A stretch of DNA of 64,000 nucleotides from Leptonema illini DSM 21528 (GTDB lineage Bacteria > Spirochaetota > Leptospiria > Leptospirales > Leptonemataceae). Of this stretch, positions 837 through 25,340 are shown one piece after another (position 1 is the first letter of the stretch; each line of letters opens with the position of its first letter). The DNA is taken from NCBI RefSeq assembly GCF_000243335.1, contig NZ_JH597773.1, forward strand, positions 3,804,115 through 3,868,114, in the 5' to 3' direction. The notes beneath the pieces are model-generated. The model was not told the DNA's origin. It did no database searches and saw only the letters and a list, made by a program, of their open reading frames with translations. Position numbers and translations under genes: made by a program.

Positions 837-2780
837 ATGGAAAAGCGCCGACTCAGATTGATGCTCTTTCTGGCCTTTCTCGGGCTTGGCTTTCTGGTGG
901 TGCTCGGTCGCGCCGCCTATCTTGCCGGTCTCTTCGATCTGTCGGATCGCATGCCCGGTCCGGGATCGTCGATCCGCGGCCCGATCAAGGATCGACGCAG
1001 TATCAGCCTGGCGGTTACCGAAGAGGCGAGCACCATCGGACTGGCGCCGCCCGAGCTGCTTGATCCGGAATTCACCGCCCGGTATCTTGCCGGTTATCTC
1101 GAAACCGATTCGGGCGAGATCCTGAGAAAGATCTATCTCTATCAGGGGCGCAAGTACTTTCTGTTGCAGAGGCAGGTGGATAACTTTACGGCGCAGCAGA
1201 TTATGGATCTGCGTCTGCCCGGCGTTTACAGAGAATACGAGAATCGTCGTGTTTATCCATCCGGACGTCTGGCCTCGAATCTGCTCGGCTTCACCGGCCG
1301 CGATTCGGCGCAGGCCCTGGCCGGTCTTGAATACGTATATAACGACGTGCTCACCGGCAGCGGTTATGAGCGCGGTCCTACGCTCTATCTGACAATCGAT
1401 TCCATCTTGCAGTACCGGATGGAGAAAGCCCTGCGTAAAGGCTTCGAAGGCTCCGGCGCCGATCGGGCCGTCGGAATCATGATGGACGTCGAGACGGGAG
1501 AGGTGCTGGCGGTGGCGAACCTGCCCGACTTTGATCCGAATTTTTACTACAGAGACGACGCCGCGGCGAAGGGAAACTGGGCCATTCGGTTAAACTTCGA
1601 GCCGGGCTCGACAATGAAGGTGTTCGCCGCCGCCGCCGTCCTGAACGAGCGACCTGAAATCCTGAATAAGCGTTTTATGTGCAAGGGAGAGTTTCCCTTT
1701 CAGGGAGGATCGGTACGCTGCCTGCGACATGGCAAGACGCAGGCACACGGTGAGCTCGACCTGTTCGGAATCATCGAGCAGTCGTGTAACGTCGGCATGA
1801 TCCAGGCGGCGTCGACGATCGACGATGCCACCCTCTACAAATACCTCGTCGAGTTCGGATTCCAGGAGCGCACCGGAGTTCTGCCCGAAGGCAGCGGCGA
1901 AACTCGCGGCTATATGCCCGAGCTGAAAAGCTGGGTGCAGTCCACGCACTATTATACGCCGATCGGCCAGGGCATCAGCGTTACGCCGATGCAGCTTCTG
2001 CGAGGTTATTCGGCCCTTGTGAACGGAGGCAGCCTGCTGCAGCCGTCTTTGATGAAGCGCATCGTCGCCGAAGAAGGCGTCGTGCTGGATGAGATGCAGA
2101 TTTTATCGAAACCGACTTCGCTTCGTCCGGAACGAATGCAAATCCTGAATCGCATGATGAGGGCAGTCGTCGCTACGGGCACGGGTCGGGCGGCTAACCT
2201 GAAAGAGATCGAGATCATCGGTAAGACGGGAACGGCGCAAAAATCCAGTGCTGCCGGCTATATCGATCGTTATTCGACGTCGTTTCTTGGAGCCTTTCCG
2301 GCCGACCGCCCGCGCTATGCCGTTTTGATTCTGTATGACGGCGTCGGTGGCGATCAGTCGGGCGGGGGGTTATCCGCTCCGGTATTCGCCGAATTCGTGA
2401 GAAGCATTCTGCCGTTGATTGAAGCGCATTCCGAGGTCTTTGATGTCGCCGATTATGAAAGGAAACGGGAAAAGCGCGAGCAGGCAGACGAGCAGAAGCG
2501 GGAAGAACAGGGCGAAAGAGATCGAGAGAGTAGCCAGGACGAACCCGACGGAGGAACCGGAGCGGAGCAGGCCTACAGGCTTGCCGTAAGGCGTCTGAAG
2601 GCCCGCGAAGGCGTCGTACCCGACTTCCGCAATCATCCGGTGCGCACAGCCATCGAATGGTCGGCGATGCATACCGGCATTCGTCTGAATGTGCGCGGAT
2701 CGGGCTATGTGTTCAGGCAGCAGCCGGCTCCGGGAACGCCGCTTCGCGACGCTCCGGAGCTGACGCTATTCGCCGAATGA
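837..2780 (+). CDS. ftsI: Penicillin-binding protein transpeptidase (FtsI/PBP2 class) with C-terminal PASTA-like domain
   Basis: D,D-transpeptidase that cross-links peptidoglycan, anchored by one N-terminal membrane helix (about residues 8-30). The class B PBP dimerisation region follows. The three transpeptidase motifs are then present: STMK (Ser258, Lys261), SCN (Ser316-Asn318) and KTGT (463-466). After the catalytic domain comes a strongly charged Lys/Glu/Arg-rich linker at about 535-575. The last 60 residues (VVPDF...) resemble a single PASTA repeat, which in other FtsI/SpoVD proteins tunes substrate or septal binding. ATG 837 is chosen because it follows the lepB stop closely. There is no division-cluster context (mraY, murE) here, so whether it acts in septation (FtsI) or elongation (PBP2) is not settled. 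Confidence 0.87.
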   Translation: MEKRRLRLMLFLAFLGLGFLVVLGRAAYLAGLFDLSDRMPGPGSSIRGPIKDRRSISLAVTEEASTIGLAPPELLDPEFTARYLAGYLETDSGEILRKIYLYQGRKYFLLQRQVDNFTAQQIMDLRLPGVYREYENRRVYPSGRLASNLLGFTGRDSAQALAGLEYVYNDVLTGSGYERGPTLYLTIDSILQYRMEKALRKGFEGSGADRAVGIMMDVETGEVLAVANLPDFDPNFYYRDDAAAKGNWAIRLNFEPGSTMKVFAAAAVLNERPEILNKRFMCKGEFPFQGGSVRCLRHGKTQAHGELDLFGIIEQSCNVGMIQAASTIDDATLYKYLVEFGFQERTGVLPEGSGETRGYMPELKSWVQSTHYYTPIGQGISVTPMQLLRGYSALVNGGSLLQPSLMKRIVAEEGVVLDEMQILSKPTSLRPERMQILNRMMRAVVATGTGRAANLKEIEIIGKTGTAQKSSAAGYIDRYSTSFLGAFPADRPRYAVLILYDGVGGDQSGGGLSAPVFAEFVRSILPLIEAHSEVFDVADYERKREKREQADEQKREEQGERDRESSQDEPDGGTGAEQAYRLAVRRLKAREGVVPDFRNHPVRTAIEWSAMHTGIRLNVRGSGYVFRQQPAPGTPLRDAPELTLFAE

Positions 2781-2795
2781 CAGAACGCTTTTTCG

Positions 2796-3260
2796 TTACC
2801 GATTGGCCTCGACAAAGCCGGCCGTGTCTTCATAGAAATCGTAGGTGAAGATCTTGCCGTCTTTGATAACGCATTTCAACGCCCAGGCGCTTTCGTAGGT
2901 CTTTCCCGTAGATTTCAGCTCATGCTTGAAACGGCCGTTTGCGAATACTACGTCGCCGCTGCCGATGACGTTCTCTACGGTGAACTCCTTTGTATTGAAT
3001 GCGGCTCCGAGGCTCTGGATGAACTCCTCCACGCCTTTTTTGCCTTTATAGGTACCGTAGGGCTCGCCGGGTTTACGTCTACCTTCACGGACGGCGTTTA
3101 TGGTCGCCTTCTCGTGAAAGCTGCCGATGAGTCCGGCCATATCGCCTTTGCCAAAGGCGTTGAAGAAGCCTTTAACGACGTCCACGCCGTCCGCCTTTTC
3201 TGCCTGAAGCGTCGATGCGAAGACCGACGATACAAGCAACATGAGTAATCTGTTACGCAT
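2796..3260 (-). CDS. Exported SnoaL/NTF2-like protein
   Basis: A 154-residue protein with an N-terminal signal peptide (MRNRLLMLLVSSVFASTLQA). It is followed by a cone-shaped SnoaL/NTF2-type fold typical of small ligand-binding or ketosteroid-isomerase-like proteins (VVKGFFNAFGKGDM near the start, a DGKIFTYDFYED strand near the end). The ATG at 3260 is preferred over longer in-frame starts because an AGGAG sits just upstream and the signal peptide begins there. It is transcribed divergently from a TetR gene, and two near-identical palindromes lie between them, so it is the likely target of that repressor. Substrate and enzymatic activity, if any, are unknown. Confidence 0.75.
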   Translation of the reverse strand: MRNRLLMLLVSSVFASTLQAEKADGVDVVKGFFNAFGKGDMAGLIGSFHEKATINAVREGRRKPGEPYGTYKGKKGVEEFIQSLGAAFNTKEFTVENVIGSGDVVFANGRFKHELKSTGKTYESAWALKCVIKDGKIFTYDFYEDTAGFVEANR

Positions 3261-3290
3261 TGTTTTCTCCTGATGACCGGCCCGTATTTT

Positions 3291-3330
3291 CGATACTGCC
3301 GGTATCGTTATTTCGATACCAGTAATATCG
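3291..3330. promoter_or_regulatory. Twin palindromic operator between divergent SnoaL-like and TetR genes
   Basis: Two 17-bp imperfect palindromes of the form CGATAC-N5-(G/A)TATCG lie at 3291-3307 and 3314-3330, their starts 23 bp apart, inside the 112-bp divergent intergenic region. The arms (CGATAC/GTATCG, second copy CGATAC/ATATCG) are shared between copies while the centres differ, as expected for a repressor half-site. TetR-family repressors commonly bind such sites next to their own gene. Assignment to the adjacent TetR gene is inference from position and symmetry. Confidence 0.6.
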
Positions 3331-3372
3331 TAATTCGCTTGACCGGCAATCTTTTTCTGCAAGAAAAGCGGG

Positions 3373-3969
3373 GTGAAGAAAAAAGAGCCGGATCGCAGGC
3401 GGGGGCGGCCTCGATCCGCTGAATACGAAGAGGCCATTCTTGCAGCCACTTACGCGCTGCTTGCCGAAAAAGGGTATCACGGTTTCTCTATAGAAGATGT
3501 CGTGCAGGCTACGGGTGTGGCTCGCACGACGATCTATCGACGCTGGCCGGACAAGGCCTCTCTTGCCATGCAGGCCATTCTCACACAGATCAGTCCGTAT
3601 CTGGACTTTGATGAACGACTTCCTTTTGCAGAGGCAATGAAGAAGCAGATGAAGGGTCTGGCCGGCGTATTTCAGGGAGATAACGGACGCGTCATTGCAT
3701 CCGTTATCGGTGCGGCCCAGGACGATGAACAGCTCGCGAGGTCCGTTCGCGATGACTATCTGCGTCCGCGAAGGCGCATCGCCCATGATTTCATCAAGGG
3801 CGCGATACGCCGCGCAGAGTTCCCCGCATCAAGCGAGGCCGAGATTGAAGGATTCATCGACCTTCTTTACGGAGGGTTATACTTTCGCCTGCTGTTAAAG
3901 CATAAGAGGCCGGGCCTTGATGGCGTGGAACGATGGATCGACCTCGTCTTCGCGGCCCTCAAGAAGTAA
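3373..3969 (+). CDS. TetR/AcrR family transcriptional regulator
   Basis: Repressor-type regulator of 198 residues. A basic N-terminus (RRRGRPRSAEYEEAIL) leads into a TetR helix-turn-helix at about residues 18-62 (ATYALLAEKGYHGFSIEDVV, then GVARTTIYRRWPDKASL). A helical ligand-binding region with a TetR_C-like pattern follows. The start is GTG 3373; the preceding AAGAAAAGCGG gives only a weak ribosome site, so translation may be low. It is divergent from the exported SnoaL-like gene, with a double palindrome between them, which suggests autoregulation and control of that neighbour. The ligand cannot be read from sequence. It ends 68 bases from the convergent 3D-domain gene. Confidence 0.85.
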   Translation: MKKKEPDRRRGRPRSAEYEEAILAATYALLAEKGYHGFSIEDVVQATGVARTTIYRRWPDKASLAMQAILTQISPYLDFDERLPFAEAMKKQMKGLAGVFQGDNGRVIASVIGAAQDDEQLARSVRDDYLRPRRRIAHDFIKGAIRRAEFPASSEAEIEGFIDLLYGGLYFRLLLKHKRPGLDGVERWIDLVFAALKK

Positions 3970-22436: not shown

Positions 22437-23906
22437 ATGGCGACTGATCTCAAAGAAACCCATGGCCCTGGTCTATTATTGTGCCTGTTGCTGCTTACCT
22501 CCTGTATGCAGGCCGAGAAGGTCAGCCTCGATTCATCGGGCCTGGAAGGCCTTTTACTGAACGGGATTACTTTGAATGCAAATTCTTCAGCAGGTGATAC
22601 CGGTGGAGGCGGAGATGGAGGCGGAGATGGGGATGGTGGGGGACCGACCACGCCGCCTGTGGCGCTGACGATGACGGCTTCGACACCAGCCTCGCTTTCG
22701 TCTCAGGATCTGCTTCTGGGCCGAAATGGCATTTCTATCACCATGAGCGAAACGCTCGACGATTCCGTTTCTCCGGTAGTGCACCTTTACATTGTTCGCT
22801 CGGGAACGGCCTATGAGCTGACCGGCTTGAATGAGACCGTTGCGGTAACCGGAAACTCTATCACTGTGGATCCTCATCTGCATGTCTGGCCCGGTATAGT
22901 TCGGATTCGTGTGGTCATAGAAAAGGCCAGTCTACGCACGGTCGACGGACGCTCGCCAGCTTCCGATATCAGCCTTGAATTCACTACGGCCGATACAAGT
23001 GGCCTCTACAGGGCTCCGATTCCGTTAACACGGACATACACGAACAGTGGCGGGGGCACACCTTACTATTCTGAGCCGGCCAGCGGGATGTACTGGATGC
23101 CCTGTGTGCAGGGGCGCAGCGGAGCCGATTGTTCAAGCGGTGTCGTTCAGCTCTTTACGTTTGAGCAGGCTCAAGCAGCCTGTGGAGCTCTGAATGCCGG
23201 TAGCGGGTACGGCGGCCTGAAAGGATGGCGTGTTCCGACAATAACCGAACTGGAAACCCTGCCCGATTACGGCAGAGTGAACCCGGCTATCAGTCCGACC
23301 TTCCCCGCAACGTGGTCTCTTCCTCATTGGACAAGCAGTTCCCGAGGGGCGGATGATGCCTTTGCCTGGACAGTAGATTTTCATGCAGGTGAAGTGCTTC
23401 TCAAAAATAAAGCCGAGAGCTTTCCTGTTCGATGCGTGCTGGATCAGCACGGATTCCATACAGACTCTGTGAGTCATGGGTTCACCTGGGATACGGATGA
23501 ATTTGGAAGCACCTACTTGACGGACGGATACAGCTCTTTGCCGAAATTTGATATGTGTCCGTATGGATATTCTGCGGGCGGCCTTTCCTGCGTCGGTTCA
23601 GGAAGCGAGCTTGCCGCACAGGCCACGATCCGTACCGCCTGTCAGGCAAGAGAACCGGATTTTTTTCAGACTCAGCTCGCTTCGGTCAATGACATGAAAT
23701 ATATCATGCGACGGTTCAACCCGTCGGGTATGGCTCCGGGGCTTGCCACTGGAAACAGTAAAATCTACTGGACCGATACAAGGTTGGTGGGGAATCCATC
23801 ACTGGGTTTCGCGGTAAACATCGCTACAGGCGAGATCTTCCTTGTAGATGTAAACACATTCAATACGGGGCGCTGCATCGTTGTTGCTCCGATTATTCTG
23901 GGTTAA
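22437..23906 (+). CDS. DUF1566 (Lcl-like) lipoprotein
   Basis: A 489-residue exported protein. A lipobox leader (LLLCLLLLTSC) is followed by a glycine/aspartate-rich flexible linker (about 53-70), a Big-like beta domain (about 75-190), and two DUF1566-type modules. These have the WRVPTITELETLPDYG and FPVRCVLDQ signatures, and Cys pairs that probably form disulfides. DUF1566 domains occur in surface lectin-like and fimbria-associated proteins. A degenerate paralogue follows directly. The ribosome site for ATG 22437 is weak. The role may be in surface adhesion or matrix binding, which is inference. Confidence 0.78.
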   Translation: MATDLKETHGPGLLLCLLLLTSCMQAEKVSLDSSGLEGLLLNGITLNANSSAGDTGGGGDGGGDGDGGGPTTPPVALTMTASTPASLSSQDLLLGRNGISITMSETLDDSVSPVVHLYIVRSGTAYELTGLNETVAVTGNSITVDPHLHVWPGIVRIRVVIEKASLRTVDGRSPASDISLEFTTADTSGLYRAPIPLTRTYTNSGGGTPYYSEPASGMYWMPCVQGRSGADCSSGVVQLFTFEQAQAACGALNAGSGYGGLKGWRVPTITELETLPDYGRVNPAISPTFPATWSLPHWTSSSRGADDAFAWTVDFHAGEVLLKNKAESFPVRCVLDQHGFHTDSVSHGFTWDTDEFGSTYLTDGYSSLPKFDMCPYGYSAGGLSCVGSGSELAAQATIRTACQAREPDFFQTQLASVNDMKYIMRRFNPSGMAPGLATGNSKIYWTDTRLVGNPSLGFAVNIATGEIFLVDVNTFNTGRCIVVAPIILG

Positions 23907-23913
23907 CAGTTCT

Positions 23914-25340
23914 ATGAATACCGGCGTAAAATCCATAGGCCTGCTTGTTCTTGTTTTGTTATCAGCCTGCATGCAGGCCGAGAAGGGCTTCTGCTGAACG
24001 GGGTTGCATTGAATGCTAATTCTTCAGCAGGCAATAACGGTGGAGGCGGAGGCGGAGACGGCGGCGGATCGACCGGCACGGCACCCGTCATGCTGGACGC
24101 CAATCCTGATGCAGCCGATGGTGTCGTCTTCGTCAATGTGCACTTCTCAGGGCTTTATTTTGACTTTGATACGAACTTGCGAGCGACAGATACGCCAACC
24201 GTCAAGGTGGCCTTCTGGAACGGCAGCGTATGGGAAGAGCCTTCGAATCTGAATATTACGACATCCATATCGGGCTCACGGCTAACCGTTCAAACCGGTC
24301 TGGTCTTTTTTCCAGAGAACACCCGCGTTCGTGTCACCGTCGTCGGTTCCACGCTGCACAGCGCCGACGGTCTTGCCGGCACACAGGACTTCACGACAGA
24401 ATTCCTCACAAACAAGATCGGGCCCCGCGTGATAACGACAGGATCGGGCAGATTTCAGTCAGCGACTTTAAGCGGAAATGATGTAGTAATTGATAATGCG
24501 ACGACTATCCGCTGGACGAAGTGCGCACTCGGAACGGCCGCGGATTGCAGTGGAACTCCGCAGCTCTATTCACAGGGCCAGGCGATGGGGGCCTGTGCAG
24601 CTTTAAATACGATGAATAGCGGAGCGGGTTATGCAGGGCGTACGAACTGGCGCCTGCCGTCTATCGAAGAACTTGAAAGCCTTCCGGACTTTGAGCGAAC
24701 CCAGCCGCTTCTTCCGTCGGCTAACTTTCCGAACCTCACAAGCGGGCAGTACTGGTCGATGAGCGCCGTGGGGCCCACCAGCACGCTTGCCTGGAGCATG
24801 AACCTTTATACGGGAGAACAGAACCAGACGGGACGAGCAACGGCGCTTCCGGTTCGATGTCTCAGCGATGAAGCAGGGTTTGGGCCATACAATTCTGGCA
24901 GCATTACGAGCGGTGGAGGATACAGGTTAGACGAAGACGGGTTGTCCATCTCGTACTACAGGCTGGATCTCTTCCCGACCTACTATTTTTTAACATGCGC
25001 GCTCGGGTTCTCATCGGTTTACTCCGGCAGCTATCTCTGCGAGACGCCACAGACTATTGCGGGAGTGCATTCTGAGCGCGTTGCTGCATGCGCCGCTGTG
25101 TCAGGTCGAAGGGCTCCAGCCATAGACGAGCTCCTGTTGATACTCCGTCGTGAACTGCCCGCAACGGGCTACAGGGCTGCGGATTTTTACGGAGCCGGCG
25201 GCGATACCATCGTCTGGTCGTCTACGACTGCAGCGGGAAGCAAGGCCTATGCCGTTGATTTTCAGACCGGAGCAATCAAGCTTTTGCCGCAGGCTGAATC
25301 ACACGCCATCCGTTGTTTGCGGACGGCTGCGCCGTTTTAA
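23914..25340 (+). pseudogene. DUF1566 lipoprotein paralogue, frameshifted after the signal peptide
   Basis: The leader (ATG 23914, MNTGVKSIGLLVLVLLSACMQAEK) matches the paralogue just upstream but meets TGA at 23995 after 27 codons. The rest of the protein resumes in another frame with LNANSSAG and runs to 25340, containing the glycine linker, a Big-like domain and DUF1566 modules (WRLPSIEELESLPDFER, LPVRCLSDE). Compared with the upstream paralogue, 28 bases are missing between two GAAGG direct repeats, which shifts the frame. The long body lacks stops, so the break is recent or the product is made from an internal TTG near 24009, without export. A sequencing error is possible. The 3' end shares the TTAA with the convergent gene. 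Confidence 0.7.

Follow-up and report, generated by a model that had tools for sequence, protein, structure and literature searches.

Frameshift pseudogenes that arise through deletion between short direct repeats, by slipped misalignment, are a known kind of disrupted gene. Phase variation commonly affects surface lipoproteins, and the vls locus of Borrelia is a silent-cassette antigen system. Domains of the DUF1566 (Lcl_C) type can be targets of diversity-generating retroelements, and DUF1566 turns up, by listing, in the literature on these elements. The leptospiral protein Lsa25 is described as a surface protein that binds laminin and carries both a signal peptide and a DUF1566 domain (PMC3444417).

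Here we describe a tandem pair of Lcl_C genes of Leptonema illini 3055T, a spirochete described as non-pathogenic (PMC3746420): copy 1 and copy 2, the second of which is quite probably a frame-disrupted lipoprotein paralogue, pseudogenised or nearly so. Positions are those of the window, a stretch of 64,000 nucleotides from a genome of 4,522,760 bases in three contigs (4,325,094, 184,087 and the remaining 13,579). A literature search, mostly by titles and the starts of abstracts, found no published report on the copy 2 locus.

The tandem pair and its relatives

The pair lies downstream of a subtilase-family gene, and comprises the following features:

22437-23906, plus strand: copy 1 lipoprotein gene, 489 aa, intact by inspection
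22517-22549, plus strand: copy 1 stretch with two GAAGG 28 nt apart, encoding the conserved SLDSSG core that has no counterpart in copy 2
23907-25340, plus strand: copy 2 body, an open frame of 477 codons without ATG, GTG or TTG before 24009
23914-23997, plus strand: copy 2 leader ORF of 27 residues; signal peptide and LSAC lipobox, both by inspection
23966-24061, plus strand: copy 2 leader-linker tract resembling copy 1 (22501-22624), silent sites included, with much less similar flanks
23982-23986, plus strand: the single GAAGG of copy 2, where the 28 nt are missing
24009-25340, plus strand: copy 2 body from its first possible start, TTG, 443 aa, with no signal peptide seen in frame

Copy 1 displays, in order, a signal peptide, the lipobox LTSC (Cys codon at 22503), a leader motif shared with other loci, a Gly-rich linker and an Lcl_C body. 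Signal peptides and lipoboxes were assigned by inspection throughout, without a signal-peptide predictor. The n-region of the copy 1 signal peptide (22437-22503) is unusual, MATDLKETHGPG, with little positive charge, and the start of this gene may be misplaced or altered. The copy 2 leader opens with an ATG at 23914, separated by 7 bases from the copy 1 stop, and ends at the TGA at 23995-23997. The ORF positions thus bear out the initial annotation, which had placed a stop in the leader at 23995 and had the body open to 25340. The copy 2 signal peptide and lipobox hence do not share a frame with a mature body, as they would in a bacterial lipoprotein.

Both bodies, which are about 33% identical to each other, belong to the Lcl_C family (PF07603, curated cut-off 34.9 bits): copy 1 matches in one stretch with 87.1 bits and copy 2 with 110 bits, a second repeat in the copy 2 body staying under the cut-off at 28.6 bits. 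Matches of the copy 2 body to the NCBIfam models of Lsa25 (NF047850, 27.6 bits) and Lcl (NF046116, 17.4 bits) are weak and partial, far below the respective cut-offs of 260 and 500, and hence do not place it with the Lsa25 adhesins. Among 40 relatives, 34 have a match to copy 2 and 33 to copy 1 (best E among the matches listed 8e-24 and 2e-23, respectively); most of them do not reach beyond the Lcl_C part, and no whole-gene orthologue of either copy was found among the matches listed. Contig scans for a strain comparison, from which the genome itself may be left out, gave no match. The genome also has 10 reverse-transcriptase (RVT_1) matches in two equal-score groups of 3 and 7 copies, which we take to be, probably, multicopy mobile group II introns rather than parts of a diversity-generating retroelement.

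The leader family and the 28-nt loss

Two queries were run against the genome: the copy 1 leader, and a profile built from six intact leaders. The full leader motif was recovered at seven loci with six distinct sequences (two loci being identical), to which copy 2 is additional. The profile finds each of the seven loci with E 7e-21 or better; copy 2 is found in two weak pieces, covering profile positions 2-16 (E 0.013) and 22-47 (E 0.009), which lie in different frames. In an alignment of 7 rows (copy 2, copy 1 and five further leader paralogues), a 28-nt gap within the leader motif is seen in copy 2 only, the remaining gaps falling in the variable linker. The S, L, D, S and G residues encoded by the missing segment are invariant in all six distinct leaders. 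Since all these leaders keep the 28 nt, the loss is the derived state and copy 2 is the disrupted member.

In copy 1 the two GAAGG copies lie at 22517-22521 and 22545-22549; the exact repeat is 5 nt long and sits within an imperfect repeat of 11 nt, as read from the sequence. The left flank of the loss is identical to copy 1 at 20 of 21 nt, and the right flank at about 80% over 103 nt (E 6e-22), or 83% over 86 nt in another alignment. Both the leader alignment and the repeat positions agree with the initial annotation, which had proposed a 28-bp deletion between GAAGG repeats at this site; its reading that copy 2 lost its frame by a net loss of 28 nt between short direct repeats is thereby supported. 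Microhomology of at least 5 nt, the length at the copy 1 site, occurs at 423 of 62,900 possible 28-nt deletions in the window (0.7%). This rarity favors, without proving, an origin by slipped misalignment or microhomology, on the presumption that the copy 2 ancestor resembled copy 1 at the site. The net 28 nt could also have been lost in two steps instead of one.

Several other members of the family have contexts of their own. At L091:3396-7460 (about 2794400-2798460) two transposase ORFs, one DUF772/DDE and the other rve-type (IS3-like), break up a further leader-family locus, which speaks in favor of a disrupted copy 2. At L091:1-1883 and 1984-3658 a tandem repeat of one leader plus its upstream sequence (spacing about 1.77 kb, 100 N in between) reflects either genuine duplication or faulty assembly. 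At L092:1577-6497 the leader is common to three tandem lipoprotein-like genes: two without a Pfam match above cut-off and a third combining Big_5 with a double Lcl_C.

Across 198 genomes of the phylum, including its own, the copy 1 leader matches at E<=0.01 in two only: its own genome and G019 (E 0.002). The latter match sits some 500 codons into a long open frame and was taken as chance; no convincing copy of the leader was thus found in this set outside the genome itself. The S-L-D-x-S-G core was considered as a Leptospirales-wide lipoprotein motif and dropped on low counts among lipobox ORFs: a hydrophobic residue or P followed by D-x-S shortly past the lipobox Cys is seen in 0/9 such ORFs of G022, 1/15 of G005 and 3/22 in stretches of the genome itself, two of these three being family members; these counts come from small samples and a crude lipobox filter. 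Loosely similar stretches behind lipobox-like N-termini are observed in three relatives, in L125 of G027 (…PLD.SS…, E 0.60), L126 of G012 (…PLDTSQ…, E 0.78) and L059 of G028 (…PWDMST…); a distant leader motif shared by these is conceivable.

Leader tracts of tandem neighbors

In their leader blocks, copies 1 and 2 are alike beyond what their protein similarity calls for: among the 19 positions with a common residue, 14 use an identical codon, against an expected 6.2, a value reached in 1 of 20,000 draws. Past the gap, the identity at third positions amounts to 0.78 over the initial 23 aligned codons and to 0.12-0.48 in 18 later segments, being near random in the body; just upstream of the lipid Cys the copies are dissimilar as well (13/45 nt, ungapped). 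A second tandem pair, L064 and L065, has 17 of 21 leader codons identical (expected 8.3; none of 2,000 draws as high) and a DNA tract of 195 nt in common, though its bodies are dissimilar. Other pairs are mostly not above expectation; copy 1 with L062 (p 0.017) and L062 with L065 (p 0.012) are above it, uncorrected for 15 pairs. These silent-site patterns suggest local copying of leaders between neighbors, the tract looking younger than the bodies in two tandem pairs. L066, which adjoins L065, has no excess with L064 or L065, at 8/17 codons each (expected 6.4 and 6.9; p 0.29 and 0.38), and this counts against a simple rule of local copying.

Two stronger readings build on this pattern. One is that the leader, SCMQAEKxSLDTSGxEGLL, is shuffled by local gene conversion, whereby bodies would be swapped on and off export, with copy 2 in the unexported state; we regard this as very unlikely. 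The other would have copy 2 as a silent body store, re-expressible via the copy 1 leader tract as leaders recombine among neighbors. It could draw on the codon excess of the copy 1/2 leaders while the third positions of their bodies are near random, and on the same pattern in L064/L065 with their dissimilar bodies. However, L066 lacks the excess with both L064 and L065, the data come from a single genome, the exact matches are short, the tract may go back to one old copying event and dedicated recombination is not seen, such that this is the least probable of the readings considered here.

Fate of copy 2 and comparison with known systems

On its sequence we judge copy 2 to be a pseudogene or a gene without surface function. 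Against its intact homologs it shows a derived frame disruption, as is typical of a frameshift pseudogene. The deletion would have occurred by a slipped-strand or microhomology-mediated event between the GAAGG copies; ribosomes would then make the 27-residue leader peptide and stop, and any body protein started at TTG 24009 would be cytoplasmic, unlipidated and unable to act as a surface lipoprotein. Its function may be covered by copy 1 and other paralogues. The copy 2 body shows no decay: in frame it has 0.015 bits per codon, as compared to 0.018 in copy 1 and -0.50 to -0.60 for the two remaining forward frames, and both its Lcl_C match and its weaker second repeat are still recognizable. 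This counts against the pseudogene reading, as copy 2 may still be used. Nevertheless, stops accrue slowly: a neutral sequence of this length gains only about 0.5 stop per 1% substitutions, and by the same arithmetic has none about one time in twenty even at 6% divergence. Hence, the open body bounds the age of the change only loosely, and the loss of frame may be of some age. The proposal that the change is recent is accordingly supported only in a loose way. With one genome compared, the allele could also be a variant of one culture.

The undecayed body would also fit a gene that is split but still expressed, with either coupled stop and restart at TTG 24009 or ribosomal frameshifting providing a useful body protein. 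TTG 24009 is 11 nt past the leader stop and, as read from the sequence, has GGGG 5 nt before it, so that the internal initiation suggested by the initial annotation is possible; as compensation it falls short, the product being devoid of signal peptide and lipobox. No start that would rescue the body with a signal peptide was found, whereas each of the three intact Lcl_C members of the leader family (copy 1, L066 and L093) has an export signal by inspection. For frameshifting a slippery motif is missing: 23915-23998 has no X XXY YYZ heptamer in any phase and no homopolymer above 4, which leaves programmed -1 frameshifting without its signal. We therefore consider a split, functional gene unlikely. 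Somewhat less likely is a sequencing or assembly error that hides a gene intact in the organism. As an improved draft, the assembly still contains gaps, including one of 100 N in L091 beside another leader paralogue, and similar leaders could confuse an assembler. However, the copy 1 and copy 2 tracts diverge at roughly a fifth of their sites and share no exact match above 16 nt, which makes a collapse unlikely, and the coverage of the Illumina-polished consensus is 1,312x; for L. illini 3055T, 1,276.9x Illumina and 35.5x 454 are reported, with an error below 1 in 100,000 (PMC3746420). A sequencing error is thus an unlikely cause of the 28-nt loss.

The direct repeats around the segment in copy 1 and, again, the undecayed body could also indicate a phase-variable contingency locus, in which the 28 nt are lost and regained, turning the lipoprotein off and on. 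This is highly improbable, and for reasons of logic more than of data: after the loss a single GAAGG is left without a template, such that slippage cannot restore the segment. Efficient RecA exchange needs roughly 20-25 nt, and regain by recombination with the copy 1 leader, the nearest donor, would have to start from an exact match of 16 nt at the longest. No tandem array of the kind seen at slippage loci is listed at the copy 2 site. The suggestion of phase variability is therefore not upheld; under slippage the change would be one-way, with no phase switch.

In terms of known systems, ordinary gene decay is what the change in copy 2 looks like. Copy 2 is an ordinary broken paralogue and the leader family behind it is mildly interesting. 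The broken gene itself matters little: it informs annotation and removes one candidate switch. The leader sits in front of dissimilar lipoprotein bodies, with its silent sites kept similar in two tandem pairs, and could help explain the spread of export leaders among spirochete lipoprotein genes. With Lsa25 and the Legionella Lcl, copy 2 has in common an Lcl_C body above the Pfam cut-off, but it differs from them in the want of an in-frame export signal. With the silent cassettes of the Borrelia vls type, the pair has in common neighboring surface-lipoprotein genes, one of them without a usable leader; in contrast to vls, there are only two copies with bodies of about 33% identity, no array and no observed variation. 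From slipped-misalignment frameshift pseudogenes copy 2 differs in nothing essential, even with its short repeat (5 nt) and a possible two-step origin: it has in common with them a short junction repeat of which one copy is left, and a lost frame.
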